NCBI RefSeq assembly: GCF_000013385.1
Contig: NC_007760.1
Span: 2,047,001 to 2,111,000 of the forward strand
Direction: 5' to 3'
Origin: Anaeromyxobacter dehalogenans 2CP-C
GTDB taxonomy: Bacteria; Myxococcota; Myxococcia; Myxococcales; Anaeromyxobacteraceae
Length of the DNA stretch: 64,000 bases
The position numbers and the translations under genes were made by a program. Within the stretch, counting starts at the first letter, position 1; each line of letters begins with the position of its first letter. This document shows positions 6,169 through 63,322 of this stretch, piece by piece. The notes below the pieces were generated by a model that was not told the DNA's origin, ran no database searches, and saw nothing but the letters and a program-made list of their open reading frames with translations.

Positions 6169-6171
6169 CAC

Positions 6172-11878: not shown

Positions 11879-11897
11879 TGGTGCTGCGAGGCGGCGA

Positions 11898-11926
11898 AGT
11901 ATGCCGTCGGTCCCCGGGTGTGTCAA
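11898..11926 (-). promoter_or_regulatory. Sigma70-type promoter of tRNA-Val
   Basis: Reading on the minus strand, TTGACA (11926-11921) and CATACT (11903-11898) are separated by 17 bases, a near-consensus promoter. The tRNA 5' end at 11878 is about 20 bases downstream of the -10 box, allowing a short leader. Confidence 0.75.
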
Positions 11927-11931
11927 CGGGT

Positions 11932-12267
11932 TCAGCGCGAGCCGTCGCCGGGGGGATCGGGCGGCTCGCCGCCGCCGCCGCGGCGGGTCTCCTCGAGCTT
12001 CTCGGAGAGCTCGCGGGCCTTGCGCTTGATGCGGGCGAGCTGCTTCGCGAGGTCCTGGTAGTCCTGACGGCCGGGGATGCCCGCGGCGGCCATCACCCGC
12101 TCCTGGAGCGCCTCGACCTGCTTCCGGCCGCGCTGGGCGAGGCCCACCGCGCGCGCCACCGCCTCCTGGCCACGCGGGTCCTTGATGACGGTCTCGGCCG
12201 CCCGCGCCACCAGCTTCGTCCCGGCGTCGAGGAGCGAGCCGGCGATGCCCTTCCCTTCGCGTCCCAT
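11932..12267 (-). CDS. Small phasin-like helical protein, unknown
   Basis: A 111-residue protein (ATG at 12267). It is largely helical and charged: a possible amphipathic N-terminus (IAGSLLDAGTKLVARAAETV), then LAQRGRKQVEALQERVMAAA, then a Lys/Arg/Glu-rich coiled coil, ending in a Gly/Pro-rich tail. The pattern resembles phasins and other surface-coating helical proteins, but similarity is only in general form. It is the last gene of a minus-strand set with an SCP2-like protein (8-base gap) and an Hsp70, suggesting a shared role in lipid or protein quality control. Confidence 0.6.
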   Translation of the reverse strand: MGREGKGIAGSLLDAGTKLVARAAETVIKDPRGQEAVARAVGLAQRGRKQVEALQERVMAAAGIPGRQDYQDLAKQLARIKRKARELSEKLEETRRGGGGEPPDPPGDGSR

Positions 12268-12275
12268 GCGCCCTC

Positions 12276-12686
12276 CTACGGAAGCTCCGTCTGCACCGCC
12301 GCCAGCGCCGCGTCCACCACCCCGCGGTGCTGGGCGCGGCGGATGAGGGCCTCGAGGTCCCCCTCGACCGTCACCCGGCCCGACAGCGCCGCCTGCACCG
12401 CGTCCGCGCCGCGGAGGATCGCCTTCACCGTCCCGTACGGCGCACGGATCACGTAATCCGGCTCGAGCTCGAGGATCTCGTCCTCGTCGGCGAGCAGTCG
12501 CCAGCGCGCGATGCGCCCGCCGCGCTGCTCCGCCCAGGCGGCCACGGTGCGGGGCCACGCGGGCGGGTCGGCCTCCACCACCAGCGCCGCGGTCGTGCCC
12601 AGGCCGCGGAGCGCGGGCGCGAGGCCGGGCTGCGCGTTGAGCGCCGCCACGAGCGCGTCGATCCACTCGCGCGAGCCGAACCGCAT
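12276..12686 (-). CDS. SCP2-like sterol/lipid-binding protein
   Basis: A 136-residue protein. The central part ILELEPDYVIRAPYGTVKAI and LSGRVTVEGDLEALIRRAQH follows the SCP2 pattern: beta strands, then a helix that ends a hydrophobic lipid pocket. It usually binds acyl chains or acts as an accessory domain. Start ATG at 12686 lies two bases after the Hsp70 stop (12689), so the genes are co-transcribed. The N-terminal 60 residues are helical and include the segment EWIDALVAALNAQPG. The SCP2 call rests on pattern recognition only. Confidence 0.6.
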   Translation of the reverse strand: MRFGSREWIDALVAALNAQPGLAPALRGLGTTAALVVEADPPAWPRTVAAWAEQRGGRIARWRLLADEDEILELEPDYVIRAPYGTVKAILRGADAVQAALSGRVTVEGDLEALIRRAQHRGVVDAALAAVQTELP

Positions 12687-12688
12687 CC

Positions 12689-14311
12689 CTAGCCCCGCTT
12701 CAGCCAGCCGAACAGCCCGCCGCGCCGCTCCTCGCCCGCCGCCGCGGCCGCGGCCTGCTCGCCCGCCGCCTGGCGCCGCCGCGCCTCCTCGGCCAGGGCC
12801 CGCTTCATGGCCTCGGGGGTGTCGCGCGTGGCGAGGCCGATCTCGGTCATGCCCTTCACCGGGTCGTCGAAGCTCACCTTCAGCAGGCACTCCTCGTCGA
12901 GCTTGAAGTCGATGCGCCGGCCGGTGGCGGCGGCGGGGAGGCGGATGGAGCCCAGGAACTCGTGGTCCACCAGGAAGTCGGAGTCGCCCTGGTAGATGTC
13001 GATCTCGATGGGCTGCCCGGGCTCGCGCGGCGGCGGCAGGCGGAAGCTCTTGCTCGCCGGGATGGGCGTGTTCTTCTCGAGCACCTTGCGGAAGTGGCCC
13101 GTGGGGGTGGCGATGCCGATGGGCATCGAGAGCACGTCCACCAGCGTCACCGAGTCGATCTGGTCGATCGAGTCGCCGAGCAGCGCGGCGCCGAGCGCCA
13201 CGCACTCGTCGGGGTGGACGCCCTTGCGCGGCGGCTTGCCGAAGTGCTCCTGGATCTTCTGCTGCACGAGCGGCATGCGGCTCTGGCCGCCCACCAGGAT
13301 GATCTCGTCGATGTCCTGCGGGCGCAGGCCCTTCTCCTCCATGACCTGGTCGCAGATCTCGAAGGTGCGCTCGACGAGGTCGAGCGTCAGCTCGTTGAGC
13401 TGGTGGCGCGAGAGCGGCATGCGCACGTCGAGCGGCCGCCCCTTGCGCTCCTCGATGAACGGCAGGTCGATGACGACGTTCGGGATGAGCGAGAGATCGA
13501 TCTTGGCGGACTCCGCGCCCTTCTTCACCCGCTGCATGGCGATGGGCGACTGCGCCAGGTCGATCTTGTGCTGGCGCCAGAAGTCCTCGAGCACGTAGTC
13601 GATGATCCGGTTGTCGAAGTCCACGCCGCCCAGGAACGTGTCGCCGCCGGTGGCCAGCACCTCGAACACGTTGCCGGAGAGCTGGAGCACCGAGACGTCG
13701 AACGTGCCGCCGCCCAGGTCGTAGACCAGCACCTTCTGGTCGAGCCCGCGCGAGAAGCCGTAGGCGAGCGCGGCCGCGGTGGGCTCGTTGACGATGCGCT
13801 TCACCTCGAACCCGGCGATGCGCCCCGCCTCGCGGACCGCCTGGCGCTGCGCGTCGGAGTAGTAGGCCGGCACCGAGATGATCGCCCCGGCCAGCTCCTT
13901 CTGCAGGAACGCCTCGGCGATGGTGCGGATGTGCGCGAGCACGAGCGCGCTGATCTGCGGGAGCGTGTGGACCTGCCCGCCGAGCAGCACGGCCGCCTCG
14001 CCGCTCGGTCCCTCCACGATGTCGTACGAGTAGTAGTTGCGCAGCTCCTGCACGACCTTGGAGTTCCACTTGCGGCCGATGAGCCGCTTCGCGCCGTAGA
14101 TGGTGTTCTTGGGGTTGGTGACGAGCTGGTCCTTCGCCACCCCGCCCACCAGCACGTCGCCCTTGTCGCTCAGCGCCACCACGGTCGGCAGGATCAGGTT
14201 GCCGCGGTCGGTCGGGACGACCTTGGGGATGCGGTTCCGCACGTACGCGACGCACGCGTTGGTCGTGCCGAGGTCGATGCCGATGATGGGCTTTTCCCGC
14301 GCGCCTGCCAT
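12689..14311 (-). CDS. Hsp70 (DnaK-family) chaperone with shortened lid
   Basis: A 540-residue Hsp70. The ATPase domain shows [14 protein letters not shown] (residues 10-23), [14 protein letters not shown] and [13 protein letters not shown], and the substrate-binding beta domain holds [20 protein letters not shown]. DnaK is normally about 640 residues. Here the helical lid is replaced by a short Ala-rich stretch ending GLFGWLKRG. The family binds unfolded peptides in an ATP cycle with J-protein and exchange factors. No dnaJ or grpE is adjacent, so this is probably a specialised paralogue rather than the housekeeping DnaK. It heads an operon with SCP2-like and phasin-like genes. Confidence 0.9.
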
Positions 14312-50559: not shown

Positions 50560-50633
50560 GGTGAGGTAGCTCAGTCGGCTAGAGCGAGGGTCTCATAATC
50601 CCTAGGTCGGGAGTTCGATTCTCCCCCTCACCA
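50560..50633 (+). tRNA. tRNA-Met(CAT), elongator type
   Basis: A complete cloverleaf: acceptor GGTGAGG/CCTCACC, D-arm GCTCAGTCGGCTAGAGC, anticodon loop CTCATAA with anticodon CAT, and T-arm GGGAG-TTCGATT-CTCCC. The discriminator is A and CCA is not encoded. The first pair G-C is closed, so it is not an initiator. Isoleucine-2 (lysidine) identity cannot be excluded. The 3' part from 50592 is the attachment site of the element that follows. It remains intact. Confidence 0.92.
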
Positions 50634-50635
50634 CT
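50592..50635. repeat. attL: 44-bp direct repeat in tRNA-Met
   Basis: This 44-bp sequence (second half of the tRNA plus two bases) recurs perfectly at 60995-61038. The pair marks the ends of the inserted element, the tRNA being kept functional on this side. Confidence 0.9.
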
Positions 50636-50640
50636 TCACA

Positions 50641-50697
50641 ACAGCCCGTAAGGACGCGGTTCTCGCCACAGATACTTGTGGCGAGCGTTCGGGCTGT
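50641..50697. repeat. Nested inverted repeat beside attL
   Basis: ACAGCCCG (50641-50648) pairs with CGGGCTGT (50690-50697), and inside it CTCGCCACA (50662-50670) pairs with TGTGGCGAG (50677-50685). It lies between the tRNA and the integrase and could terminate tRNA transcription or control the integrase. Confidence 0.55.
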
Positions 50698-50702
50698 GTT
50701 CC

Positions 50703-50727
50703 CTTCGTTACGCAGCCGTTACGTAAC
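50703..50727. promoter_or_regulatory. Candidate integrase arm-type site, left
   Basis: A 25-base segment containing CGTTACG twice and the palindrome GTTACGTAAC. It recurs with two mismatches at 60875-60899 near the other end in the same orientation. Paired sites inside both ends are typical of integrase arm or excisionase binding sites. Confidence 0.5.
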
Positions 50728-50738
50728 AGGGGGACGCC

Positions 50739-51947
50739 ATGGCGCCGGAACAGCAGGCAGGTCGGGCATCGCACCGAGGCTCTTGGATCGGGACTTGGGA
50801 AGGCGGCCGGATCTGGCGCGGCGCGGACGGCACCACGACCTTCCACATCCAGCGCATGGTTGCTGGGCGCCGCTATAGCTTCGGCGTCGCCACCTCGCAT
50901 CGCGCCGCCATCAAGCAGCTCGAGCGGTTCGAGTCGGACCCGGCCGGCTTCCAGCCTGGGGGCACGCCGCGCGCCGCGCCGCTCTTCCTCGACAACGAGC
51001 TGGTCGAGGAGTTCGTGGTTTGGTCCGCCGGCGAACGAGCGAACACTGCTCAGTGGGTGGGGAAGCAGAAGGCCATCCTGACCTGGTGGATGGAAAGGCT
51101 CCGAGGCGTCGACCTCCGTCGCGCCTCGTTGCGCGACCACATCCTGCCGCCGCTCGAGGGTGCCACCTCGCGCCGGCAGCGGATCGCTGTCCTCAAGGCG
51201 CTCTACTCCTGGCTCCGCAAGCGGCGCCACCTGCTGACCTCCGCGGATGACTGCACGCTCGACCTCTCCGCCCCTGCCGCCACGCCCGAGCAGTGGCGCC
51301 GCCTCAAGACCATACCGCGCGACCACATCGACCTCGTGATCGAGTACCTCCGCGCCGAGGAGCAGGAGCGTCGCACCAAGCACGAGCAGCGCAAGCAGGC
51401 CCGCCGGCAGACGAAGTCCGGCACGGTCCTCCGCGTGGTGTCCGACAACGAGGAGGAGAAGGAACCGCGCGACGCGCCGTGGTCCGACGTGCTCACGATC
51501 CAAGCCGGCACCGGCTGGCACACGACCGAGGTCGTCCGGTTCGCCGCGAGCGGCTCCATCGAGCCTCTCCCGCAGGCGGTGGTGCAGGACGGTGTCGCGG
51601 GCGTGCTCATCTGCCCGATGCACAAATCCGGCGAGCCGATTCGGACCCGCGTCTCGGCCGCGGTCGTCGACGCGGCGAAGCGCCTGCTCGAGCACGGCGC
51701 GGTCTCGCGTGAATGGTACGACCGCGCCGTTCGCGCCGCCTGCAAGTCGGTGAAGCGCCCGGACGGCAAGGTCGGGATCCCGGTGTTCACGCCCGGCCGG
51801 CTGCGCCACTCGGTGGCGACCTGGGCGATCGAGTCTGGAGCCGACCCGGCCGCCGTCGCCGCGTTCCTGGGCCACAAGTCGGCCCGAACGACGAAGCGGT
51901 TCTATGCGACACACGCCAGCGTGCGGAAGGTGCCGACGCTGGTGTGA
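50739..51947 (+). CDS. int: Tyrosine recombinase / integrase
   Basis: A 402-residue integrase starting at the ATG at 50739 after GGGGGAC. The N-terminus contains an SH3-like or AP2-like arm-binding part (GRIWRGADGTTTFHIQRMVA), then a core-binding domain (about 75-170). The catalytic domain has RLRHSVATWAIESGADPAAV and LGHKSARTTKRFYATH with the His and the Tyr nucleophile. The position of the first Arg reads TGWHTTEVVRF, with His instead of the usual Arg, and box II lacks its His. It is next to attL, so I think it still mediates integration, but these differences are notable. Confidence 0.82.
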   Translation: MAPEQQAGRASHRGSWIGTWEGGRIWRGADGTTTFHIQRMVAGRRYSFGVATSHRAAIKQLERFESDPAGFQPGGTPRAAPLFLDNELVEEFVVWSAGERANTAQWVGKQKAILTWWMERLRGVDLRRASLRDHILPPLEGATSRRQRIAVLKALYSWLRKRRHLLTSADDCTLDLSAPAATPEQWRRLKTIPRDHIDLVIEYLRAEEQERRTKHEQRKQARRQTKSGTVLRVVSDNEEEKEPRDAPWSDVLTIQAGTGWHTTEVVRFAASGSIEPLPQAVVQDGVAGVLICPMHKSGEPIRTRVSAAVVDAAKRLLEHGAVSREWYDRAVRAACKSVKRPDGKVGIPVFTPGRLRHSVATWAIESGADPAAVAAFLGHKSARTTKRFYATHASVRKVPTLV

Positions 51948-52170
51948 CCCGGCTTCACCCGGCCGCCTCTACCTTGACGCTGGCGTGCCGCCTGTGGTCT
52001 CGTAGCCTCGCAGTCAACATAGCTTGTGCCCCGCGCCTGGGGCCTTGAGAGTCGGTGGCAGCGGGAAGGCCGGTTCTCCACGAACTCCCCAGGGCGCGGA
52101 TAGGCAAAGTCGCTGGTCACCCGACTGCGACGGCACGAGACCGATCTCCACGCGGAACCCGAGCCGGCGT

Positions 52171-52196
52171 GGCGAACCCCAAAGGAAGGGTTCGCC
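52171..52196 (+). promoter_or_regulatory. Hairpin with Shine-Dalgarno in its loop
   Basis: GGCGAACCC (52171-52179) and GGGTTCGCC (52188-52196) make a perfect 9-bp stem ending directly at the ATG at 52197, and the loop CAAAGGAA contains the ribosome-binding site. In mRNA this could regulate translation of the downstream excisionase-like gene. Confidence 0.5.
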
Positions 52197-52535
52197 ATGC
52201 CTACGTCCGCGAAGCGGTCTACTGCCCTCACGCCCAAGTATGATCCCCTCCCCCTCGCGCTTTCGAAGCGTGCGGCGGCGAAGAAGCTCGGCATCGACAG
52301 AGGCCGCACGCTCTCACTCCTCATCCGCACTGGCCGGCTGCGCACCGTGCCGTGGGGCAACGCGGTTCGGATCCCTCTCGCCGAGGTCGAGCGACTGGCA
52401 GCCGAGGGTTTCGACGCCAAGGGCGCCGCGCCGCGGGCGGCACAAGCTCCGCGCGCGAGGCGCGGCACTGTTGACCCTGCCGCGCTCCGCCGCATGACGG
52501 TGGGCGACATCCTCGCTCGGAGGAAGGCGCCTTGA
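52197..52535 (+). CDS. Excisionase-like helix-turn-helix protein
   Basis: A 112-residue protein. LALSKRAAAKKLGIDRGRTL, then LIRTGRLRTVPWGNAVRIPL and EVERLAAEGF, is the MerR/excisionase (HTH_17) fold with helix-turn-helix and wing. The Arg/Ala-rich tail is probably disordered. Such proteins bend DNA for excision or repress the integrase. The translation start is embedded in a hairpin (52171-52196). Its stop overlaps the next TTG start by four bases. Confidence 0.72.
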   Translation: MPTSAKRSTALTPKYDPLPLALSKRAAAKKLGIDRGRTLSLLIRTGRLRTVPWGNAVRIPLAEVERLAAEGFDAKGAAPRAAQAPRARRGTVDPAALRRMTVGDILARRKAP

Positions 52536-52786
52536 CCCGCAAGCAAGCGGCGGCGCTCGCGCAACTGGTCGAGGTCCTCAAGCCGAGAGAGCTGCAGGTT
52601 CTCTTCACGTACTGTGACCGCGCGTTCTGGGAAACCGACGCGCTCATCCGCGGCACGTCCGGGGACGCCGTCATGCGGCGAGTGCTGGAGCGGCGCGCGC
52701 GCCTTCTGGTGACGGCGCGTCGCCTCGCGCTCAAGAAGCTTGGCGGGGCCGTGCCTGATGGAGGCGGGTCCAATGACCGCGCGTGA
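52532..52786 (+). CDS. Small helical protein A (paralogue of 52773-53000)
   Basis: An 84-residue protein, TTG start at 52532 overlapping the previous stop by four bases. AALAQLVEVLKPRELQVLF and the later LERRARLLVTARRLALKKL are two amphipathic helical stretches. It is similar in order and wording to the next gene (LVxILKPxExxVL), so the two look like a tandem duplication. Unknown function, perhaps replication or regulation, given the primase next in the operon. Confidence 0.55.
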   Translation: MTRKQAAALAQLVEVLKPRELQVLFTYCDRAFWETDALIRGTSGDAVMRRVLERRARLLVTARRLALKKLGGAVPDGGGSNDRA

Positions 52787-53000
52787 GTGGAAGGCTTTCG
52801 AGCGCCTCGTCGCGATCCTCAAGCCCGGTGAGCGGGCGGTCCTCATCCGCGTGTTGGGTCGACAAGCGCGCGAACTGGCTGCCATCGCGCCCAACCCGGC
52901 TCACGCAGCGGACCGCCTCATCCAGCGTCGCGTGCGCGAACTCAAAGCGATGCGCGACTACGCCGTGGAGATGCCTGGCCGGGAGGAGGCTCGGCGATGA
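52773..53000 (+). CDS. Small helical protein B (paralogue of 52532-52786)
   Basis: A 75-residue protein. The ATG at 52773 is preceded by GGAGGCGGG and begins MTAREWKAFERLVAILKPGE, matching the preceding protein's start. It ends in RRVRELKAMRDYAVEMPGRE. The gene overlaps its upstream neighbour by 14 bases and the primase gene by four, so all three are coupled. No family recognised. Confidence 0.55.
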   Translation: MTAREWKAFERLVAILKPGERAVLIRVLGRQARELAAIAPNPAHAADRLIQRRVRELKAMRDYAVEMPGREEARR

Positions 53001-55252
53001 CAACCAAGCCCTCTCCGGAAGCGCTGCGCGCTGCGCTACCTGCACAACTCATCGCGACGGACGCTTGGGTCGGCCACAAGGCCAAGAAGCCGCTGATCCT
53101 GCCCGGCTGCGCTCGACTGGCGAAGACCAACGACCCCAAGACGTGGCGGCCGTTCCGCGACGCGCTGGCGTTCCTCAAGCGCACGTACGACGACCCGCAG
53201 GCCGGCGTCGGGTTCGTCTTCCAACGCAAGCTCGGCGTCGTCTTCATCGACTTCGACCACTGCCTGGACACGAGCGGAGCCCTCCTGCCCTGGGCGGCGC
53301 CGCTGCTCGAGCCGTTCCGAGGGACCTACGTCGAGCGGAGCCTGTCCGGACGTGGGCTACACGTGCTCGCGCTCGGGAGCGTCCCGCACGCTTTTTCCAA
53401 GCTAGTTCCACCAGCAGCTGCCGGTGACGAGCACATCGAGGTCTACAGCGAGAAGCGGTACGCCGCGATCACTGGCGACACCTACGACGGCGCGCCCGCG
53501 GAACTGCTGGACAAGCAGAAGGAGCTGGACGCGCTCCTCAGGGCGCTAGCACCCAAGGCAACCGTCGCAGCCACCCGGAGCGATGAGCACGTGCCGCTGT
53601 CCGCGCAGGAGGTCGACAAGATCCGGAGTGCACTGGACGCGATCGACCCGGACGTCGGCCACGATGAGTGGCTCAGGGTTGGGATGGCGTTGCACTTCGG
53701 ATTTGAAGGCAGCGCGGAGGGGCTGGCGCTCTGGAACGAGTGGAGTGCTGGTGGCGGAAAGTACAAGAACGGCGAGCCGGCGGACCGTTGGCGGTCGTTC
53801 AAGCGAAACGGCGTCACGCTCGGATCGCTTTTCCACTTCGCCAAGAAGCACGGCTGGCGACCCGAGCCCACAGCCGAGCAGGACTTCGGGCCAGCGCTCG
53901 CGCGCGACGAAGCCTTCGTCAGCCTGGACGATCTCAACAGTCAGTTCTTCGTGATCGAGGAGTCGGGACGGCACTTCGTCGCGTGCGAGTCGTACGATCA
54001 CGCACGCCGCAGAAGGATGCTCAAGCGCTTCTCGTTCGCAGAGTTCAAGGCGCGCTATCTCGGGCGAACGGTCCTCAACGAAAAGGGCCGGCAGATCCCG
54101 ATGGCGAAGAGCTGGCTCGAGTGGCCCGGCCGCAGGCAGTACCTCGGTGGCGTGGTCTTCGTGCCGGGTCGCTCTCTCCCGTCCGACGTGCTGAACCTGT
54201 GGGGTGGCTGGGCAGTAGCGCCCAAGCCCGGTGACTGGTCGCTTCTGCGCGAGCACATCCACGACGTCATCTGCTCCAAGAACGACGAACTGGATGCTTA
54301 CGTGATGGGCTGGCTGCGCCGCCTCGTGCAGCGGCCGGATGAGCCAGGAGAGGTCGTCCTGGTTCTGCGAGGCGTCCAGGGCGCCGGGAAGAGCGTTGTT
54401 GGCTACGCGCTGCAGAGGATGTGTGGTCAGCACGGGATGGCCGTGGCAAGCCAGCGCGCGGTCACGGGCCAGTTCAACGCGCACCTTCGCGACCTCCTCC
54501 TGCTCGTGGCGAACGAGGCCGTCTTCCCCGGAGATCGCAGCGGCACGTCGGCCCTCAAGGCGCTCGCAACCGACCCGACGATCTTTCTCGAGCAGAAGGG
54601 GATCGATGCGGTCGAGGTGCCGAACTACCTGCACATCCTCATGACCACGAACGAGAACTGGGCGGTTCCGGTTGCGCTGGACGACCGCCGCTTCGCGGTC
54701 CTCGACGTGGCCAGTTCTCGCGTCGGCAACCGACCGTACTTCCGGGCCCTGCAAGCGGCGGTGAGGAACGACGATGTCATCGCTGCGATGTTGCACGACC
54801 TCCTCTCCGAACCGCTCGGTAGCTACGAGGTGCGCGACATCCCCAGGACCGAGGCCCGACACGAGCAAATGATGCAGTCTCTCGAGGGCGCGGAAGCGTG
54901 GTTGTTCCACGTGCTGACGCTCGGCGAGCTTTCACCGAGCGCGGTCGAGTGGCCGACGTTCGCCGCAACGACGACGCTCTACCAAAGCCACGAAGACTGG
55001 GCACGAAGCGGAAAGCATAGGCGCCTCCAAGACCCTGCGGTGATCGGCAGGTTTCTCGCGCGCTTCTTCGCAACCGAGCGACCGCGATCAGTCGGTGGCG
55101 CGCGAGTCCGGGGATACCAACTCGGAACGCTCGCCGAGGCGCGCGAGCGGTTCTGTTCCGTGCTGGGACTCTCCTCCGCGGTTTGGGGCGAAGACGCGGG
55201 AAGGGACACGTCCGCAGCCGACTCCAGGCGGGTTATGGAGGACCTCCTGTGA
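52997..55252 (+). CDS. PrimPol/D5-like primase-helicase (NrS-1-type)
   Basis: A 751-residue replication protein. The N-terminal primase-polymerase has GFVFQRKLGVVFIDFDHCLD with Asp85/Asp87 as metal ligands and VERSLSGRGLHVLALG as the second conserved block, a pattern shared with the NrS-1 phage primase-polymerase. A helix-bundle region (about 195-290) follows. The D5-type helicase has Walker A RGVQGAGKSVVG near residue 458 and LLLVANEAVFPGD, the segment of the family that carries Walker B. It should synthesise primers and unwind the element's own DNA. The iteron array just downstream is a candidate origin. Confidence 0.85.
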   Translation: MTTKPSPEALRAALPAQLIATDAWVGHKAKKPLILPGCARLAKTNDPKTWRPFRDALAFLKRTYDDPQAGVGFVFQRKLGVVFIDFDHCLDTSGALLPWAAPLLEPFRGTYVERSLSGRGLHVLALGSVPHAFSKLVPPAAAGDEHIEVYSEKRYAAITGDTYDGAPAELLDKQKELDALLRALAPKATVAATRSDEHVPLSAQEVDKIRSALDAIDPDVGHDEWLRVGMALHFGFEGSAEGLALWNEWSAGGGKYKNGEPADRWRSFKRNGVTLGSLFHFAKKHGWRPEPTAEQDFGPALARDEAFVSLDDLNSQFFVIEESGRHFVACESYDHARRRRMLKRFSFAEFKARYLGRTVLNEKGRQIPMAKSWLEWPGRRQYLGGVVFVPGRSLPSDVLNLWGGWAVAPKPGDWSLLREHIHDVICSKNDELDAYVMGWLRRLVQRPDEPGEVVLVLRGVQGAGKSVVGYALQRMCGQHGMAVASQRAVTGQFNAHLRDLLLLVANEAVFPGDRSGTSALKALATDPTIFLEQKGIDAVEVPNYLHILMTTNENWAVPVALDDRRFAVLDVASSRVGNRPYFRALQAAVRNDDVIAAMLHDLLSEPLGSYEVRDIPRTEARHEQMMQSLEGAEAWLFHVLTLGELSPSAVEWPTFAATTTLYQSHEDWARSGKHRRLQDPAVIGRFLARFFATERPRSVGGARVRGYQLGTLAEARERFCSVLGLSSAVWGEDAGRDTSAADSRRVMEDLL

Positions 55253-55285
55253 CCAGCAGGCGCGGGCGCCCGAGAGCTGCGCCGG

Positions 55286-55541
55286 CCTGTGCGGTCCGGG
55301 TTGGGAGCAGAACCCGGACCGCACAGGAGCCCCGTCCCTACGTGTTCGGGCCGGGTGGTCCGGGTGGCCCGGGTGTTCCCGGGGTTACGAGAACGCGGGG
55401 GCACCAGGGGAAGACCGGACCAAGTCTTGGCGTCCCTGGTCTCCTCTTCTCTCTCTCTCACCCGGACCACCCGGACCAAATAGCCAGGGACGCGCGCCTC
55501 CGCGGTCCGGGCTCGGGCGACTACCCCGGACCACCCGGACC
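55286..55541. repeat. Iteron/hairpin array, candidate replication origin
   Basis: The nonamer GGTCCGGGT or a close variant occurs about ten times: 55293 (+), 55312 (-), 55348, 55357 and 55366 (+, in tandem), 55460 and 55469 (-, in tandem), 55504 (+), 55524 and 55533 (-, in tandem). The first two are the core of a perfect 17-bp inverted repeat (55286-55302 with 55311-55327). The array follows the primase-helicase stop by about 35 bases. Origin function is inferred by position and repeat structure. The 418-base gap (55253-55670) holds no convincing gene. Confidence 0.6.
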
Positions 55542-55670
55542 ACACCACCCTGCAGCCCCCCCACGGCCGCGGGTCCTCTTGCGACCAGCGGGATTGCGGG
55601 GTCGCAGAGGCGCCTTCTTCCCCCATCGACCGAGGCCACAGCTTGATGCCACCGAACAGGAGCAACCACG

Positions 55671-56234
55671 ATGAGTGAACGCGAACGACTTTCGATCCGA
55701 GCGGCGGCGCGCATGCTTGGGGTCGCGCACGTCACCTTGATGAAGGCGCTCGACCGGGGCCGGCTTGTGGAGTCCGTCGTGCGCGACGCCGCGGGCCGCA
55801 CCTGGCTAGACGCGGACCGTCTGCGGGAGGAGTGGGAGAGCAGCCGGAAGCAGCTACCGCCGCGCGCGTACCAACCCGCGGTGTCGCGCGAGACGAGAGC
55901 GGCCGTTGGTCAGCGCCTCGCGGAGGCCATCGCGGAGGAACAGGCTTTCGAGCGTGAGTTGCTGCTCTCCCTCGTCTCGGACGTCGTCGTGGGCGCAGCA
56001 GAGGAGTTGCGCCGGCTCGGGCAAGAGACCACCGAGGCCAACCTCACCGACGCGCTGGCGCTGGGGCCGAGCTTCGACGTGCTCGGCGCCCCGGCGCTCT
56101 TGGCCATGCGCGGCCTCATCGAAGACGGCGGCCCCGCGAGCGCGGAGAGGCGCGAGCTGGCGCGTCGCGCAGGCCGGGAAGCAGTGAGGGAGCGTCTGCG
56201 CTGGAAGAGGGAGGCTACCCATGGCGAAGCCTAG
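55671..56234 (+). CDS. HTH protein, possible Nu1-like small terminase
   Basis: A 187-residue protein. The N-terminal 60 residues are a winged helix-turn-helix (LSIRAAARMLGVAHVTLMKA, then LDADRLREEWESSRK), the rest are long helices (AVGQRLAEAIAEEQAFEREL; ELARRAGREAVRERLRWKRE). Nu1-type terminase small subunits have the same order of HTH and helices, but excisionase or regulator families do too. No large terminase follows. It begins 14 bases after AGGAGC. It overlaps the next gene by 14 bases. Confidence 0.55.
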   Translation: MSERERLSIRAAARMLGVAHVTLMKALDRGRLVESVVRDAAGRTWLDADRLREEWESSRKQLPPRAYQPAVSRETRAAVGQRLAEAIAEEQAFERELLLSLVSDVVVGAAEELRRLGQETTEANLTDALALGPSFDVLGAPALLAMRGLIEDGGPASAERRELARRAGREAVRERLRWKREATHGEA

Positions 56235-56535
56235 CGACGGAACGGTCGAGGTCGAGCTGACCCCCGATGTTCAACTGCTGATCATCGCGCTCGGGTCGCA
56301 CGCGCTGCGCGGAGCAACGGACACGCTCAAGGCGCTGGAGGCTCAGGGGTGTGTGGTGACGAAGGAGCACCTTCGCTCCGTCGTCGCCGCGCTCAGGCCG
56401 CGGGAGTTCTGCGAGGCGGCCCTGGTCCTGTTGACCGACCCCGCGACAACCAACGAGCAGATGATCGCGGCGGCGCGCGAGATGGGCATCCGAGCCGCAC
56501 ACGAAGCGGGGCCGTTTGCCCGAGTGGTGAACTAG
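56221..56535 (+). CDS. Hypothetical protein, element core
   Basis: A 104-residue protein (ATG at 56221) overlapping the preceding gene by 14 bases. It begins with VEVELTPDVQLLIIALGSHA and contains repeated amphipathic helices, the last being NEQMIAAAREMGIRAAHEAG. No metal motif or HTH is clear. Position suggests co-expression with the possible TerS. Family not recognised. Confidence 0.5.
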   Translation: MAKPSDGTVEVELTPDVQLLIIALGSHALRGATDTLKALEAQGCVVTKEHLRSVVAALRPREFCEAALVLLTDPATTNEQMIAAAREMGIRAAHEAGPFARVVN

Positions 56536-56537
56536 GC

Positions 56538-56876
56538 GTGCCCGTCTCCGCAGAACAGATCGCGCGCCTGCGCGTCGCCGCGGCGACAGGCGTCCTGCCG
56601 AAGGACTTGGGACGCTGGCTAGTGGAGTTCGTCACAGAGAACGCGCACCGGTCCGAGCGCGTCCGCATCCGCGACGATCTACTGCGCGAGGCGGCCTCGC
56701 GCCTCTCGGGCTCGCGCTGGGCCAAGGCCAAGCGCCTCGAGACGGAGATCGCTGCGAGTCTCAAAGGCCGGACGCCAAGTTACGACGACGGTGCGGCCGG
56801 GCTCGTAGCCCAAGCGCTCGAGGTCGGTCCGCGCACGCGACTCGCGCGCCGACAACTCCTGAGAATCCTGCGCTAG
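56538..56876 (+). CDS. Hypothetical helical protein, element core
   Basis: A 112-residue protein from the GTG at 56538, two bases after the previous stop. Mostly helical and basic: AEQIARLRVAAATGVLPKDL, then RIRDDLLREAASRLSGSRWA. The end, LARRQLLRILR, is strongly basic. No family recognised. It closes the plus-strand set before the minus-strand lipoprotein gene, with only eight bases between them. Confidence 0.5.
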   Translation: MPVSAEQIARLRVAAATGVLPKDLGRWLVEFVTENAHRSERVRIRDDLLREAASRLSGSRWAKAKRLETEIAASLKGRTPSYDDGAAGLVAQALEVGPRTRLARRQLLRILR

Positions 56877-56884
56877 CGCGGCGC

Positions 56885-57439
56885 CTATCCCGGGCAGATC
56901 ACTTCCGAGAACCACGCGAAGTTCGTATCCGGAGCGATATGAGTCCACTCCCCAGAACTAGTGCCCGCCGGGTTCCCCTTGCTGTCGAAAAGGGTTCCCT
57001 CAAGAACTCGCGACATCTTCTGCCCGCACTCGATCTCAAACAGGAAGCGAGCCACCAGCCGAGGCACTCGGCTGGCGTTGTGCTCCATGACCACTATCGC
57101 CACCATCGCTTCTGGGAAGCCGTCGCCAAGCTGTTGCCGAAACGACGGCGAGCCAAGCAAAGGAGGCACATACCCGCTCCCAATCTTGTCGCTTACCGTT
57201 TTGACGAGCGCGTCAGTCGCCTTCTTGCTGGAGGGGGTGCCAGCTTTCTTGAGCGCCGCTGCTGAGATGGATTTCACCCAAAAGCGAACACTGGGCCCCG
57301 ACCGCTGCACAGAGTCGACGTCGTAGAAGAGAACAAGGTCTCCGGACTCTGGGCTGACCATACCCAAGTACTTCCAGTCGGAGGCGAGAGCTGTCTGACA
57401 GGAAGCAAGTAGCAGAAACGTCCAGAGCGCGCGCGACAT
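56885..57439 (-). CDS. Exported lipoprotein, surface-adhesin-E-like
   Basis: A 184-residue protein. The N-terminus MSRALWTFLLLASCQTALAS fits either a lipobox LASC (Cys14) or signal peptidase I. The mature part has WKYLGMVSPESGDLVLFYDV and VRFWVKSISAAALKK, a beta-rich pattern of the surface-adhesin E type, with a later pair of Cys. It is transcribed against its neighbours inside the satellite-like element and is probably cargo (morons of this kind change the host envelope). The function is otherwise unknown. Confidence 0.65.
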   Translation of the reverse strand: MSRALWTFLLLASCQTALASDWKYLGMVSPESGDLVLFYDVDSVQRSGPSVRFWVKSISAAALKKAGTPSSKKATDALVKTVSDKIGSGYVPPLLGSPSFRQQLGDGFPEAMVAIVVMEHNASRVPRLVARFLFEIECGQKMSRVLEGTLFDSKGNPAGTSSGEWTHIAPDTNFAWFSEVICPG

Positions 57440-57544
57440 CGCATCTCCCCTTGGGCGCGCATTCTACCCCAACACCGCCGAACCGGCAGAAGTGACACAG
57501 TACCGACTTGTGGTGACATCACCCACGGTGCGCTTCTGGTTCGT

Positions 57545-59383
57545 ATGCAGACCCGCACCATGTCCGTCGACCTGGGCGAACGCGAGCGCAAGGAAGCCGC
57601 CTCGTCGCGCCGGTTCCCCGTATCCGTCTCCAGCGAGACCCCGGTCCAACGCGTGGACTGGCAGAGCGGCGGTCAGCTGTTCGACGAGGTCCTCAGCCAC
57701 GCGCGCGGCGCGGTCGACCTCTCGCGCGCCCCGCTGCCCGTTCTCGAGTCGCACGACCGCTCCAAGGTGAACGTCGGTGTCGTTCGCGACCTCAAGCTCG
57801 ACGGGAAGCGCCTTCGCGGCGAGCTGGTCCTCGGGCAGAGCGAGCGCGCCAAGGAGCTGGCCGCGGACATCGCCGACGGAATCGTGACCGGCATCAGCGT
57901 CGGATACACGATCAGTCAAGAGACGCGCGACGAGAAGGCGAAGCGGATCACCGCGACGCGCTGGTGTCCCTACGAAGTCTCGATCGTTTCCGTTCCCGCC
58001 GATCCGAGCGTCGGCATCAACAGGAGTGCAAGCATGGACGAGCAGAGCGCCACCACCACCCCGCCCACCGACAACACCACGCCTCCCGAGGTCCTCGCGG
58101 AGCGCGAGCGCGCGAGCGAGATCCATGCGCTCGTGACCCGCGCGCGGCTCGGCGCCGACTTCGGCGCACAGCTCGTGCGCGACGGCGTCCCGCTGGAGCA
58201 GGCCCGCGCCCGCATCCTGGATGCGCTCGTCGTTCGGGACCAGCAGGCGCCGACCAACCAGCACACGCGCATGGACTACGGCCGTTTCGACGCCATCAGC
58301 CCTGGAACCGACTACGGCGAGGACTTCCGCCGTGCGGCCGTCGATTCGCTGCTCATCCGGTCCGGCATCCCGGTGGCGAGGCCGCACGCAGGCGCGCGCG
58401 ACCTGTCGGGCAGCGTCTACGACCTCGCTCGGCTCTCGCTCTCTCGACAGGGGCGCACCGGGTCTCGCTTCGGCGAGAGCCGAGGCCCCGAGCTGATCAA
58501 GCGAGCGATGGTCACCGCAGACTTCCCCGCGATCCTTGCGGGTGCGCTCCACGCGTCCGTGCGGAGCGGCTACGAGAGCGAGCCCGCGTCGCACCGGGCC
58601 TGGGTTCGCGCCGTGCCCGTCCCCGACTTCCGCACGCAGCAGCGGCCGATCCTGGGGTCGGCGCCCTCGCTCGCCCAGGTGGGCGAGCACGGTGAGTACA
58701 CCGACGGCTACTTCACCGACGAGATGGCGTCGTACTCGGTGATGAAGTACGGCCGCATGGTCGCGATCTCCTGGGAAGCCCTGGTCAACGACAACCTGGG
58801 CGCCTTCCTGCGCGTGCAGCCGGCGCTCGGGCAGGCGGCGCGACGCGCCGAGGCCGACACGGTGTACGCGCTGTTCGCGCTCAACAGCGCCGCTGGCCCG
58901 ACGATGCAGGACGGCACGGCCCTGTTCCACGCGAACCACGCGAACCTCGCCACCTCTGCTGCGTTCGACTCCGCGCAGCTCGGGGCCGGCCGCGCGCTGC
59001 TGCGCAAGCAGCAGGCTCTCGGGGGCGGGTACCTCTCGCTCGTGCCCCGCTACCTCGTCGTCCCCAGCGAGCGCGAGACGGCCGCCGAGGTCCTGCTGGC
59101 CAACGCCACCCGGCGCGTGAACACGGAGAAGACCACGCCCGAGTGGATCGCGTCGCTCGAACTCGTGGTCGAGCCGCGCCTCGCCAACACGGCCGTCTAC
59201 CTCGCCGCCGAGTACAACCAGATCGACACCGCCGAACTCGGGCTGCTCGAGGAGAACATGAACGGGCCGGTGGTCGAGGAGGAGGCGGAGTTCCGCAAGG
59301 ACGTGAAGCAGTGGAAGGTGCGCCACGTCTTCGGGGCCAAGTTCCTCGACTGGCGCGGCGTCGTGAAGATGCCGGTGACCTGA
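57545..59383 (+). CDS. Prohead protease-major capsid protein fusion
   Basis: A 612-residue fusion. Residues 50-160 are a prohead protease of the HK97/S78 type: PVLESHDRSKVNVGVV with His70, GISVGYTI with Ser118 and YEVSIVSVPADP with Glu144. A linker of low complexity (about 162-190) leads to the capsid domain, whose LFHANHANLATSAAFDSAQL and the C-terminal half fit a Mu gpT or HK97-like major head protein. It would self-process to give a protease and a shell protein. It is the only virion structural gene of this element. No portal, terminase large subunit or tail genes are next to it. Confidence 0.85.
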   Translation: MQTRTMSVDLGERERKEAASSRRFPVSVSSETPVQRVDWQSGGQLFDEVLSHARGAVDLSRAPLPVLESHDRSKVNVGVVRDLKLDGKRLRGELVLGQSERAKELAADIADGIVTGISVGYTISQETRDEKAKRITATRWCPYEVSIVSVPADPSVGINRSASMDEQSATTTPPTDNTTPPEVLAERERASEIHALVTRARLGADFGAQLVRDGVPLEQARARILDALVVRDQQAPTNQHTRMDYGRFDAISPGTDYGEDFRRAAVDSLLIRSGIPVARPHAGARDLSGSVYDLARLSLSRQGRTGSRFGESRGPELIKRAMVTADFPAILAGALHASVRSGYESEPASHRAWVRAVPVPDFRTQQRPILGSAPSLAQVGEHGEYTDGYFTDEMASYSVMKYGRMVAISWEALVNDNLGAFLRVQPALGQAARRAEADTVYALFALNSAAGPTMQDGTALFHANHANLATSAAFDSAQLGAGRALLRKQQALGGGYLSLVPRYLVVPSERETAAEVLLANATRRVNTEKTTPEWIASLELVVEPRLANTAVYLAAEYNQIDTAELGLLEENMNGPVVEEEAEFRKDVKQWKVRHVFGAKFLDWRGVVKMPVT

Positions 59384-59557
59384 GCTTAGGCGAACGCCCG
59401 GACCTGGCAACGGGCTGGCTCCGCACGACGCCGCGCCGCGCTCCGCGGTCCATTGCCGGGAGAGCGCACCTCCTTCACTTTACGCCTGAGCATGGAGCGC
59501 GCGTCCCAGAGCCATGTGATTTGACTTGCAGTGCGCCACGCCCTAGCATGCGCGTCC

Positions 59558-60076
59558 ATGGAACTCCAAGACGTGAAGGGTCTTGAGGCGGTACTGAAGG
59601 CGTTGGAGGGTCTCGAGTCGCCAGTGCAGGAGCGCATTCTGCGTTGGGCTGCAGAGAGCCTCGGACTCGCAAACCCGAGCAAGGCAACATCGAAGTCGGC
59701 GACGGCCGCCGAAGCAGAAGGCGACGCGAAGACTGCACTCGAGGGTTTCGAGACAGCCGCTGATGCTCTTGCCGCGTCTCATGCTGAGACTCAGGCCGAT
59801 CAGGTGCTTGTCGTTGCAGCCTTTCTGACGAAGAAGAACGGCAAGACGGAGCTAACCGCCCAGGAGATCAACACGGAACTGAAGAACCAAGGGCACGGGA
59901 TCGGGAGCATCAACAAGGTCATCGATACCTTGAAAGACCAGAAGCCGCAGTTGATGATTCAAACAAAGAAGAGCGGCAAGACCCAACAGGCGCGGAAGAA
60001 CTACAAGGTGACGGGAAAGGGCTTCGAGAAGGTGCAGAAGATGCTTAGCGCGTCGCCGGAGAACGGCGAGGAGTAG
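59558..60076 (+). CDS. Winged-helix cargo protein, first gene of two-gene module
   Basis: A 172-residue protein (ATG at 59558). The N-terminal 80 residues are helical, acidic and Ala-rich. Residues about 95-165 are a winged helix: LTAQEINTELKNQGHGIGSI, VIDTLKDQKPQLMIQTKKSG and ARKNYKVTGKGFEKVQKML. The same wording pattern occurs at the N-terminus of the next protein. GC content is lower than in the chromosome, consistent with recent transfer. The next gene begins two bases after this stop, so the two are co-translated. Anti-phage defence is a reasonable guess for cargo here. Confidence 0.65.
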   Translation: MELQDVKGLEAVLKALEGLESPVQERILRWAAESLGLANPSKATSKSATAAEAEGDAKTALEGFETAADALAASHAETQADQVLVVAAFLTKKNGKTELTAQEINTELKNQGHGIGSINKVIDTLKDQKPQLMIQTKKSGKTQQARKNYKVTGKGFEKVQKMLSASPENGEE

Positions 60077-60078
60077 CC

Positions 60079-60834
60079 GTGACTCTGGACGAGTTTGCGC
60101 GCCGCCTTGGCAGAAGGACACCCGCCCTAAATTCGACGCAACTCGCACTCAGCCTGCTTTGGTGGCGAGAGCGAAACGCAACTCATCCTGATGACCGCAC
60201 CGCATCTGCCGGCGACCTAGCCCGCGAACTGCAGCGACTAGGTCTTGGTGCCCCGAACTCCAGTCGACTCGGCAAGAGTCTCGCAAGTTCGCGGCTCACG
60301 CTCCGGACGAGCAAGAACTTTCGCCTTAAAACCGACGCTGCGCCGAAGATCGAAGCGATGCTCGCCGGGGTGCTGGAGCCGACTGCTCCGGAGGTGCCCG
60401 CCAGTGGCGAGTTCCTACCGGAAGACGTCTGGCGAGGCACACGCGGATACATTGAGGTTGTCTGCGAGCAACTCAATGGCTGCTACTTCGCCACCTACTA
60501 CGATGCCGCTAGCGTGATGGTTCGGCGTCTAGTGGAGACGCTGCTCATAGAGGCTTACGAGAAGCTCGGTCGTGAGGCCGAGATCAAGCGCGACGGAACG
60601 CTCTTCATGCTCGGGGACATCGTCGAGCGCGCCGTGAGTACTTCCGGACTGTCAACGCTGAGCCGCGACAGCAAGAAGGCGCTCAAAAGCGTCAAGGAAC
60701 TCGGCGACAGTTCCGCCCACAACCGCAGGTTCATCGCCCGGAAGCATGACCTCGATGACTTGCGATCCCCGCTTCGTCGCCTGGTGGATGACCTGATCGC
60801 GCTCGCGGACCTTCGGCGCGCCCGTCCAAAGTAG
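60079..60834 (+). CDS. Winged-helix plus HEPN/Abi-C-like cargo protein
   Basis: A 251-residue protein (GTG at 60079). Residues 10-95 form a winged helix much like that of the preceding protein (SAGDLARELQRLGLGAPNSS and LRTSKNFRLKTDAAPKIEAM). Residues 125-251 are helical and include VMVRRLVETLLIEAYEKLGR, VKELGDSSAHNRRFIARKHD and DLRSPLRRLVDDLIALADLR, the general order of abortive-infection C-terminal or DUF4145-like HEPN domains with the conserved His in GDSSAH. Many such proteins are RNases of defence systems. It ends the element before attR. Confidence 0.65.
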   Translation: MTLDEFARRLGRRTPALNSTQLALSLLWWRERNATHPDDRTASAGDLARELQRLGLGAPNSSRLGKSLASSRLTLRTSKNFRLKTDAAPKIEAMLAGVLEPTAPEVPASGEFLPEDVWRGTRGYIEVVCEQLNGCYFATYYDAASVMVRRLVETLLIEAYEKLGREAEIKRDGTLFMLGDIVERAVSTSGLSTLSRDSKKALKSVKELGDSSAHNRRFIARKHDLDDLRSPLRRLVDDLIALADLRRARPK

Positions 60835-60874
60835 CGGGACTCGTCGGCCTCCGAGTGTCAGCAGGCAATGGGCA

Positions 60875-60899
60875 CTTCGTTACGTAGCGGTTACGTAAC
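60875..60899. promoter_or_regulatory. Candidate integrase arm-type site, right
   Basis: A 25-base segment with CGTTACG and GTTACGTAAC, equal to 50703-50727 at 23 of 25 positions and in the same orientation, 95 bases inside attR. Likely an integrase or excisionase binding site. Confidence 0.5.
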
Positions 60900-60994
60900 G
60901 CCCCCGGCCGGGCGCGGCCAGCCACGGCCACAAAAGCACGTCACGACGGGCCCTTGGACGCGTCCCCGCGTACTCCGGACCCCATCTACAGTGC

Positions 60995-61038
60995 CTCATA
61001 ATCCCTAGGTCGGGAGTTCGATTCTCCCCCTCACCACT
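60995..61038. repeat. attR: 44-bp direct repeat of the tRNA-Met 3' part
   Basis: Perfect copy of 50592-50635, forming the right end of the element. The tRNA 5' half is missing here, so it is not a functional tRNA. Confidence 0.9.
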
Positions 61039-61169: not shown

Positions 61170-62618
61170 CTACACGAGGATCTGCGTAGGGAACGCCTCG
61201 GGCGTCGGAGGCGGCATCGGCGCGGCAGCACCGGCTTCCGCTCCGCTCTTGGGCGCGGCTGCCGGTGCCATGGCCGCTCTTCGAATCGAGATCGTCTCCC
61301 GGTACTCGCGGGCCTCGGTCACCTTCGTGAACTCGATCGCGAGGTTCTGCTTGCGCGCGAACTCCTCGATCTCGTCAAGGGAGACGTTGAAGAACTCGCG
61401 GCGCAAGTTCACCAGATTCACGCGCCGATCGGCGAAAGCCTTGTGGAAGGCGTTCTCAAGCCCCGGTGCGTCCTCGGAGTAGATCATCGCGTGAACGTCG
61501 AAGTCGAACGGCACCGAGGCGTCGCTCAACTCGTACACCCGGTCGAGCGGGTCGAGTCGTCTCGTCATGCCGATCTTGAAGGTCTTGTCGCCGAATGAGC
61601 CGACATTCGAGATCACGTAGACGTGGCCGCTCTTCGTAAGTTGCGCCATCGAGGTCGCCTTCTGCATCTTGGCGTGCGCCTCTGAGAGCCTCTGCTCAAG
61701 CTCAGCCATCTTCGCGTTCGCCTTCGCCAGTTCTTCGCCCTTGGCTTTCTCGACCTCGGCGCGGGCCTTTGCGAGCGCCTTCTCGAATCTCGTCTCCTCG
61801 GCCGCCGCTTCCTGCTGTGCGCGCTCGGCCTCCCGGAGTGCCTTCTCCTCGTCGCGCATCTGCTCGCGGATGCGGCGCTGCTCCTCCTTCTCTTCGTGTT
61901 TCTTCAACTCGTATTCATAGGTGAGGCGCAGCTCGGCAAGCGCAAGCTCGACGAACTGCGGCGAGATCGAGCAACGCATCACCGTGCCGGTGTCGTTGAT
62001 GGCCGACGCACACTTGCGGATTCGCTCCTCCATCTTCGTGACGTTGTTCCACGTCACCTTCGCTACGGCAGCATCGACCTCGCCGTTGAAGGCCCTGAGC
62101 ATGAGCTTCGTCTGCTGCTTGACCATCCGCTTGCCGTCGCGCTCGCTGTTTCCGACAGTCCAAGTCGTTTCGCATGTGGCCGCGACCCCGCCCCGGATCA
62201 ACTCGCGCTTCTGCTCGTAGATGCTCGCAAGAGCGCCCTTGAACTGTTCGGAAGTCTCGAAGGTGTAGTGCGGCTTGTACAAGCCGAACGAGATGTCCTC
62301 CAAGGTCTCTTCGAGGAGGGTCACCTCCTGCTTGAGCCGCTGATACGTCGCGAACGCGCCTTGGTAGGTGCCATTCAGCTCAGCCCTCCTCTTCTGCTCG
62401 GCTGCGGTGAACTGGTCCCTCTCCGCGATCAGGTTTGCGATGCTCTGCCGCACTCCCGCGACGTGTGCCTCAACATCGATGATTGCCGAGTACCTCTGAA
62501 GTTGCTGCTCGACGTCGGCGCGGCGCGAAGACTCGCCGCGCCACTTGAGCAGGAACACCACCGCGGCAGCGAGGACAGCGAGAAGGCAAGCCGCAACCGC
62601 CGCAAGCAGCACAGTCAT
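61170..62618 (-). CDS. DUF4041/T5orf172-like membrane-anchored GIY-YIG protein
   Basis: A 482-residue protein. The ATG at 62618 begins an N-terminal membrane helix (MTVLLAAVAACLLAVLAAAV). Residues about 35-220 match the DUF4041 region (RLKQEVTLLEETLEDISFGL; YKPHYTFETSEQFKGALASI). A long Glu/Ala-rich coiled coil follows. Residues 350-440 are T5orf172, a GIY-YIG-like nuclease (SGHVYVISNVGSFGDKTFKI, HKAFADRRVNLVNLRREFF). Phage and defence-island genes often have this order. It lies 132 bases outside attR, perhaps part of a second island in the same locus. Its target is unknown. Confidence 0.78.
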   Translation of the reverse strand: MTVLLAAVAACLLAVLAAAVVFLLKWRGESSRRADVEQQLQRYSAIIDVEAHVAGVRQSIANLIAERDQFTAAEQKRRAELNGTYQGAFATYQRLKQEVTLLEETLEDISFGLYKPHYTFETSEQFKGALASIYEQKRELIRGGVAATCETTWTVGNSERDGKRMVKQQTKLMLRAFNGEVDAAVAKVTWNNVTKMEERIRKCASAINDTGTVMRCSISPQFVELALAELRLTYEYELKKHEEKEEQRRIREQMRDEEKALREAERAQQEAAAEETRFEKALAKARAEVEKAKGEELAKANAKMAELEQRLSEAHAKMQKATSMAQLTKSGHVYVISNVGSFGDKTFKIGMTRRLDPLDRVYELSDASVPFDFDVHAMIYSEDAPGLENAFHKAFADRRVNLVNLRREFFNVSLDEIEEFARKQNLAIEFTKVTEAREYRETISIRRAAMAPAAAPKSGAEAGAAAPMPPPTPEAFPTQILV

Positions 62619-63322
62619 GTAGGCGTCCTCGGATTGTGATCCACGGGGCACGCATCGTACCGCGGCCGCGGACACTCAGCATACCAAGAGTGCACCCCAT
62701 CGACCGTGCGCGCGTTGCAGAGATCGGCCAAGGAGATCACGATCTTTCTGTGCCGGACACCCGCTTCGACTCTCTCATCGACGCGCGTCTGCCTGTGCCG
62801 GGTTCGCGGGACAGAATTTGGCGCCTCCTCGGAAGGCGCTGCGACCCCCAGTTCTCCTCGCGGCCTGGGATACGCCCTGGTCTTGAAGCTCGCCCGGTTT
62901 CACGCGCAGATCGGCTTCGCAGCCGCGCATGGGGAGCTTGACCGCGTGGATCGCTTCCTACCGTCCTTGCCGCCGAAGCGTTGCACCGCGTCCCGGAAGC
63001 TCGACAGGGTAGCCTGCCCCCGGAGCCGCCCTGGATGCTCTCGTGATCCCGTGCCCGCGGCCTTCGGCGTTCGGGTCCTCATCCATTCCTCGGAGGAGGC
63101 TCTCGGGTTCCCTCGGTGGATGAGCGCCTCGGGGTGGCGCGTGCGGATGGAGCCGGTGCGGGCGACGAACCCTACGCACTCGGCCGCGCGTGCGAAGAGG
63201 ACGATCTCGCGGGCCGACTCACCGCTGCCTACGTGACGTGGGCACGGGCGGCGCCCGTTCAGTGGAGCGACCGGGCGAGGCAGGAACGCTCCGATTGCTT
63301 CGTCCGCAGCGGCCCCGTCGCG
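62619..63322. other. 704-base stretch without convincing gene
   Basis: Open frames exist here (for example a plus frame at 62706-63236) but their amino-acid content, third-base use and mutual overlap look like chance. I see no tRNA, repeat or known motif. It may be decayed island DNA. Confidence 0.5.

Follow-up and report, generated by a model that had tools for sequence, protein, structure and literature searches.

A capsid-encoding integrated element of Anaeromyxobacter dehalogenans 2CP-C, a probable phage satellite with relatives in Myxococcota

A 64,000-nt stretch of the genome of Anaeromyxobacter dehalogenans strain 2CP-C (NC_007760.1, 2,047,001 to 2,111,000, forward strand; referred to as the window, in which coordinates are counted) carries an integrated element of 10.4 kb at 50592-61038 (the window element). 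We consider it likely that this is a phage satellite which builds its own shell and borrows the portal, the large terminase subunit (TerL), and the tail from a helper phage. As judged from the sequence, the element has intact ends, a replicase with iterons, an intact fusion of prohead protease and major capsid protein, a gene resembling that for the small terminase subunit (TerS), and a gene for a small protein, g8, and is devoid of portal, TerL, connector, and tail genes. Ten further elements are built on this plan, which thus does not reflect a one-off deletion.

The capsid-protease gene and the family of eleven elements

The gene at 57545-59383 (+) codes for a prohead protease of family S78 fused to an HK97-type major capsid protein (Peptidase_S78, 3.5e-10; Phage_capsid_4, 1.5e-49). 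Such a fusion had been postulated in an earlier note made from the DNA and its open reading frames (ORFs) (the sequence-only reading). The protein matches phrog_4523 ("major head and protease protein") with 9e-141 over residues 18-610 of 612. Residues H70, S118, and E144, which we take to be the catalytic triad by analogy with the HK97 protease, are invariant across 23 homologues, those from phages included. An AlphaFold2 (AF2) model of the capsid protein (mean predicted local distance difference test [pLDDT] score 78.5) has the HK97 fold and matches HK97-fold capsids, the capsid of a gene transfer agent, the SaPI1 capsid, encapsulins, and the capsid of EcCI2, a capsid-forming phage-inducible chromosomal island (cf-PICI; Z 14.9; best VIA Z overall 13-16). 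A disrupted capsid frame, named beforehand as a sign against a satellite, was not found: the reading frame is intact. Among relatives with 63-65% protein identity, it is codon position 3 of the capsid gene that is most diverged (0.40 vs. 0.24-0.28 at the other positions), as expected from purifying selection.

Encapsulins are matched by the model as well as phage capsids are, and HK97-fold encapsulins occur in myxobacteria. A non-viral shell (an encapsulin-like compartment), or another domesticated capsid on an integrative island, is nevertheless very improbable, given that an S78 prohead protease is fused to the capsid domain, that the closest family, phrog_4523, is one of tailed phages, that relatives of the element carry genes for TerS, tail fibre, or tape-measure proteins, and that a cargo enzyme is absent.

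The capsid protein was searched in 195 genomes of the phylum and g8 in 147 genomes of the class. This look for syntenic elements in related genomes, which the sequence-only reading had recommended, brought the total to 11 elements (the window element included) in 10 Myxococcota genomes; those with two known ends measure 9.2-12.1 kb. None of the 11 has a portal or TerL gene, and a related locus that combines the same capsid-g8 module with a portal, TerL, or tail gene set was looked for and not found. Attachment (att) repeats of 21-57 bp are present in 8 of the 11, and a ninth begins beside a tmRNA gene. The att sites vary. Elements G002 (11.0 kb), G025 (9.2 kb), G070 (10.8 kb), G100a (10.6 kb), and G142 (12.1 kb; repeats 75-88% alike) are associated with tRNA-Met, tRNA-Pro, tRNA-Leu, tRNA-Glu, and tRNA-Pro, respectively; G100b and G131 have 10.1 and 10.9 kb. 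No repeat was found for G103, the contig of G076 (the element beside tmRNA) stops within the capsid gene, and G015 is cut off by a contig end. Replicases are also of several types (PrimPol-DUF5906, D5-type, PrimPol-helicase, and replication-initiator-like). A scan of genome contigs with the capsid protein matched G015 only, and a first scan of viral contigs gave no matches.

A tail-fibre-like gene (phrog_2617) follows the capsid gene in six elements (G070, G100a, G100b, G103, G131, and G142). In G015, a tape-measure gene (phrog_8125) follows directly (L012:18285-19892; G015:C60:34184-35794), and the contig ends without a further tail gene; the product of the tape-measure gene is possibly a satellite-encoded ruler of tail length. 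The cargo gene after the capsid gene of G002 (G002:C52:86112-87173) resembles PD-T4-6 kinase-type defence proteins (PADLOC, 1e-11).

The elements are spread over at least three places in a tree built from 45 capsid proteins (the starred branches force four label changes). Six of them (the window element, G002, G015, G025, G070, and G100a), from three host families, form a clade with support 100/100 that has no phages inside. G100b and G131 form a pair, and G103 and G142 are placed beside the complete prophage of G084 and phage PBb001. By this pattern, capsid genes have been taken up repeatedly from phages. G103 (L041:10130-11299) has kept the capsid domain, with 56% identity to the G084 phage; its S78 protease domain is absent, so that it would need the protease of the helper.

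Satellites commonly interfere with capsid assembly of their helpers (PMC10945586, PMC12409344). The capsid gene could be a weapon, its product co-assembling with or poisoning helper procapsids, and the satellite DNA would then travel mainly in helper or mixed shells. The protease-less capsid domain of G103 would fit this, which we regard as unlikely, though the least so of the alternatives considered. The other elements keep a full-length capsid and protease with intact catalytic residues, capsids have repeatedly been taken from phages, and the narrow size range of 9-12 kb fits a dedicated small shell.

Packaging and tail genes, the helper, and the g8 protein

Six phages and the G084 prophage provided queries for TerL, gpW, portal, decoration, sheath, and tube proteins, and the counterparts of these were found in G084, which served as control. 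Against nine of the elements, the portal, TerL, connector, and tail queries gave no credible match besides the known tail-fibre and tape-measure genes, and the absence of TerL, portal, and tail that had been noted for the window element is thereby upheld. A weak TerL match in G100b is on the opposite strand of a helicase gene and was judged to be due to chance. A portal protein has about 500 aa and TerL about 600 aa. Neither can hide in the window element, since the largest unassigned gene-like ORF has 251 aa. Longer ORFs antisense to the replicase and capsid genes are of a kind usual in GC-rich DNA. Pfam and PHROG scans of the genes of the window element gave no match to an HNH endonuclease or to Psu/Sid.

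These results bear on whether the element is a true cf-PICI whose portal and TerL have diverged beyond recognition. The general idea is the same (own capsid, protease, integrase, and primase), and EcCI2 is among the structural matches. We give this very little credence, given that the control queries are sensitive enough to work on G084 and that portal and TerL do not fit into the available ORFs unless the motor is split over small genes.

Among contigs from IMG/VR with related capsids, 73 of 80 have a portal match, in most cases no more than about 200 bp ahead of the capsid gene; the sample is biased because virus-finding software favours portal-bearing contigs. Contigs L065 and L130, candidates for portal-less elements, were rejected; further head or tail genes follow their capsid genes, so that they are phages. 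Contig L125 (IMG/VR 3300036942_000151, 1-13061) carries genes for a TerS-like protein, a D5 primase, a coiled-coil protein, a protease-less capsid domain, and a tape-measure protein of 949 aa, with portal and TerL absent. Close relatives of its capsid are found in phages with portals. L125 could be another element of this kind or a contig that is incomplete, and it is outside the 11 counted.

Where phages with related capsids have the portal gene, the elements have g8. This gene (56538-56876, +, in the window) codes for a protein of 112 aa. In each of the 11 elements it precedes the capsid gene, whichever phage branch the capsid derives from; in G142 it is detected by profile only (E 7.8e-4). 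It directly adjoins the capsid gene (gaps of 46-68 bp in G002, G015, G070, and G100a); the window element, with an accessory gene in between, is the exception. No g8 match was obtained in 50,697 INPHARED phage records or by an IMG/VR scan, and a g8 profile did not match any of about 105 phage and IMG/VR contigs (best E 0.13). The AF2 model (pLDDT 86) has six helices, and fold searches returned a mixture of unrelated helical proteins (best PDB E 2.8; VIA Z at most 3.4). Being restricted to satellites and yet tied to a capsid gene which has itself been replaced over time, g8 most simply acts on the shell: it may set the size of the shell or adapt the shell to a foreign portal. In other satellites, capsid size is determined by Sid, CpmB, Rcm, and TcaP (PMC12409344, PMC10945586).

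For a satellite with its own shell, the following course can be envisaged. Upon infection by a tailed phage, or upon induction of one, the element would excise from tRNA-Met and replicate from an origin resembling those of phage-inducible chromosomal islands (PICIs). Procapsids would be formed from the satellite's capsid-protease polyprotein around the helper portal; g8, and perhaps g7, would determine the size of the shell or the use of the portal. The TerS-like protein g6 would direct the helper TerL onto satellite DNA; alternatively, a packaging site of helper type would select the DNA. The filled, probably small, shells would then take helper tails, the connectors also coming from the helper.

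Several points weigh against such a satellite. The genome of strain 2CP-C has no match to the TerL families PF03237, PF05876, PF03354, and PF04466 or the portal families PF05136 and PF04860. The check for a helper prophage elsewhere in the genome was thus negative for all six families, and any helper would have to arrive by infection. No known fold or function could be assigned to g8 or g7. The assignment of g6 (55671-56234, +), which the sequence-only reading had listed as a possible TerS, is indirect and was made through relatives, mainly via the N-terminal helix-turn-helix (HTH) domain. The protein itself has no direct TerS match. It aligns to g6 of G015 (33% over 171 aa), which in turn matches phrog_57, terminase small subunit (4.8e-5), and the TerS of phage RcKemmy (4e-9), so that we call it TerS-like. 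A recognizable TerS is lacking in several of the related elements. Excision, particles, transfer, helper dependence, and the function of g8 are what we infer from the sequence. The minimal helper-dependent satellite proposed earlier is supported by the recurrence of its plan; its dependence on a helper is probable.

The lack of a resident helper would also fit a decayed prophage, that is, a complete phage at tRNA-Met which lost its packaging, portal, and tail genes and left a passive remnant, as the sequence-only reading had offered for an alternative. Capsid homologues in complete phages do accompany portal and TerL, and genuine fragments exist elsewhere (a broken capsid gene in G073; lone or broken g8 in G114 and G003). 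This explanation is nonetheless quite improbable. Eleven elements agree in gene order, differ little in size, and have att repeats and open frames; the element-only capsid clade is deep; and the capsid gene has diverged most at codon position 3. The same loss would have been needed many times, with g8 and the capsid gene retained each time, and g8 is not a left-over, because it was found in no phage searched.

Integration, replication, and accessory genes of the window element

The window element is bounded by two perfect 44-bp repeats, each identical to the 3' part of a tRNA-Met(CAT) gene (50560-50634, +; detected by ARAGORN), namely attL at 50592-50635 (+) and attR at 60995-61038 (+). In two close relatives, G001 and G004, identity is about 96% as far as the tRNA; there, a single att copy marks an element-free site. 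A 25-bp repeat, CTTCGTTACGYAGCSGTTACGTAAC, with two degenerate positions, occurs just inside both ends (50703-50727 and 60875-60899, both +) and nowhere else in the window (0 copies expected by chance). By this placement, which resembles that of integrase arm sites, the pair may represent arm-type sites of the integrase.

From left to right, the genes are those for the integrase, an HTH/excisionase protein, two small ORFs, the replicase, and, after an iteron-bearing gap of 418 bp, g6, g7, g8, an Adhesin_E-like protein on the reverse strand, the protease-capsid fusion, and two accessory proteins. The tyrosine integrase (50739-51947, +) matches PF00589 (3e-10) and phrog_1. The HTH excisionase or regulator, in an AlpA-like position (52197-52535, +), matches phrog_66 (6.5e-7) and has a homologue in the G002 element. 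The two small ORFs (52532-52786 and 52773-53000, both +) were assigned by ORF and coding score. The replicase (52997-55252, +) is a PrimPol-PriCT_2-DUF5906 primase/helicase (PriCT_2, 1.2e-23; DUF5906, 2.5e-19; phrog_1829, 1.2e-58).

The gap at 55253-55670 is a putative replication origin with two opposed arrays of GGTCCGGGTG (55293-55375 and 55459-55541), which flank about 83 nt with a GC content of 62.7%, compared to 71.5% for the gap. With at most one mismatch, GGTCCGGGTG occurs 26 times in the window (11.4 expected, sd 3.2), 8 of these within 55293-55541. The perfect att repeats, integrase, PrimPol-type replicase, and iteron array that had been recognized previously are all confirmed by these analyses. 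Opposed repeats are present at the same place in four other elements (G070, G100a, G100b, and G131) and are not clear in G002 and G015. In G131 (L043:9490-9658), a probable origin consists of 38-nt inverted arms around a 93-nt centre with 39% GC and the palindrome GGGTATATTTACTAATATTAATATATACACCC.

Following g6, g7 (56221-56535, +) codes for a protein that, by alignment, is a conserved part of the module and has a C-terminal GP...N motif; no homologues were found in the phage contigs examined. Three accessory genes had not been listed in the sequence-only reading. One is the reverse-strand gene between g8 and the capsid gene (56885-57439, -; Adhesin_E-like, PF16747, 6.6e-6), which is probably exported and whose insertion at that place is seen in the window element only. 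The other two follow the capsid gene (59558-60834): one at 59558-60076 (+) without convincing family match and one at 60079-60834 (+) with a match to DUF4145 (PF13643, 5.4e-4) that is below the cut-off. Lipoprotein-like reverse-strand genes are found near the right end of G100a, G100b, and G131.

The roughly 6.2 kb that follow attR (as far as about genome position 2114248) form a stretch that is lacking at the same site in G001 and G004. No phage genes were found in this stretch or in the next 57 kb. The gene just outside attR (61170-62675, -; DUF4041/T5orf172) matches PD-Lambda-1 (PADLOC, 4e-164). PD-Lambda-1 is a single-gene anti-phage system.

Relation to known satellites

PICIs (SaPIs and the Gram-negative types) share with the window element the order integrase, HTH/excisionase, primase, origin with two iteron sets, terS, and accessory genes, with the core genes pointing rightward (PMC6092414). 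Their order from integrase to origin is found at 50739-55670. A PICI origin is located immediately 3' of the replicase and has two iteron sets flanking an AT-rich region (PMC6092414); the putative origin agrees with this by sequence, although its centre is only mildly AT-richer. PICIs are defined by having no phage structural genes and remodel the shell of the helper, whereas a capsid-protease gene is present here (57545-59383).

The cf-PICIs encode everything for capsid formation and packaging (PMC12409344, PMC10690885). As with EcCI2, the element is integrated and has an integrase, a replicase, and its own HK97-fold capsid with prohead protease (S78 and Phage_capsid_4 here). Capsid genes were acquired from phages several times also by cf-PICIs, in three clades (PMC11389934). 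In contrast, the portal, head-tail connectors, TerL, and HNH of cf-PICIs (PMC10690885) are all missing here; of the terminase and HNH set, only the TerS-like g6 is found, and the unrelated small protein g8 precedes the capsid gene. The elements thus lie between PICIs and cf-PICIs and by definition are members of neither. Because they break the rule of no structural genes and lack most of the genes that define cf-PICIs, we consider them a new variant of phage satellite.

Other satellites differ further. P4-like satellites and PICI-like elements (PLEs) also have a primase-based replicase and their own integrase and need virion parts of a helper, as would apply here. They use the helper capsid and redirect its size by Sid/Psu or TcaP, whereas none of these was recognized here and a capsid gene is present instead. 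The phage-inducible chromosomal minimalist islands (PICMIs) of Vibrionaceae are likewise small, with an integrase, an AlpA/HTH_17-type regulator, and a DUF5906 primase (PMC10803314). They integrate at fis, are devoid of a capsid gene, and travel as concatemers in helper shells, unlike the window element with its tRNA-Met site and capsid gene. A satellite-encoded shell is also made by the Streptomyces satellites MulchRoom and MiniFlayer (PMC10690885), which have TerS, TerL, portal, scaffold, and adapter but no replicase, a nearly opposite choice of genes.

The tailed phages RcKemmy, S1, and PBb001 and the prophage in G084 have a homologous S78 protease-capsid fusion, and TerS homologues are found in G103, G142, and G015. 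However, the genomes of these phages comprise about 40 kb; the genes for TerL, gpW, and portal immediately precede that for the capsid, and the set of tail genes is complete. The arrangement of a complete tailed prophage with a capsid of the phrog_4523 type (TerL, gpW, and portal upstream, tail genes downstream) is not found in the window element.

In the open literature consulted, satellites follow one of two plans: PICI, P4, PLE, and PICMI take the helper shell, and cf-PICI and Mulch/Flayer have genes for the complete head and motor; tycheposons and virion encapsidated integrative mobile elements (VEIMEs) are outside this comparison. Some tycheposons carry capsid or terS genes. A lineage with a shell and without motor or portal fills the gap between the two and indicates where dependence can be cut. 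It also raises a testable structural question: how can the capsid protein of a satellite begin assembly on a portal that is not its own, and how can the terminase of another phage fill the shell? A concrete candidate for a new protein that sets capsid size or acts as portal adaptor is g8, which is tied to capsids of several independent origins and was found in none of the phages searched.

More tentatively, and with somewhat less than even confidence, we propose a distinct class of satellites which supply chosen parts of the virion: the shell, and in some cases their own tail fibre or a tape-measure protein (G015 and one IMG/VR contig), with g8 causing capsid proteins from several phage lineages to assemble into a small shell around a foreign portal. 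The tail-fibre genes in six elements suggest that satellites may retarget borrowed particles. If the proposal is true, the virions would be hybrids, in which a satellite shell, and sometimes satellite parts for host range or tail length, are mounted on a helper chassis.

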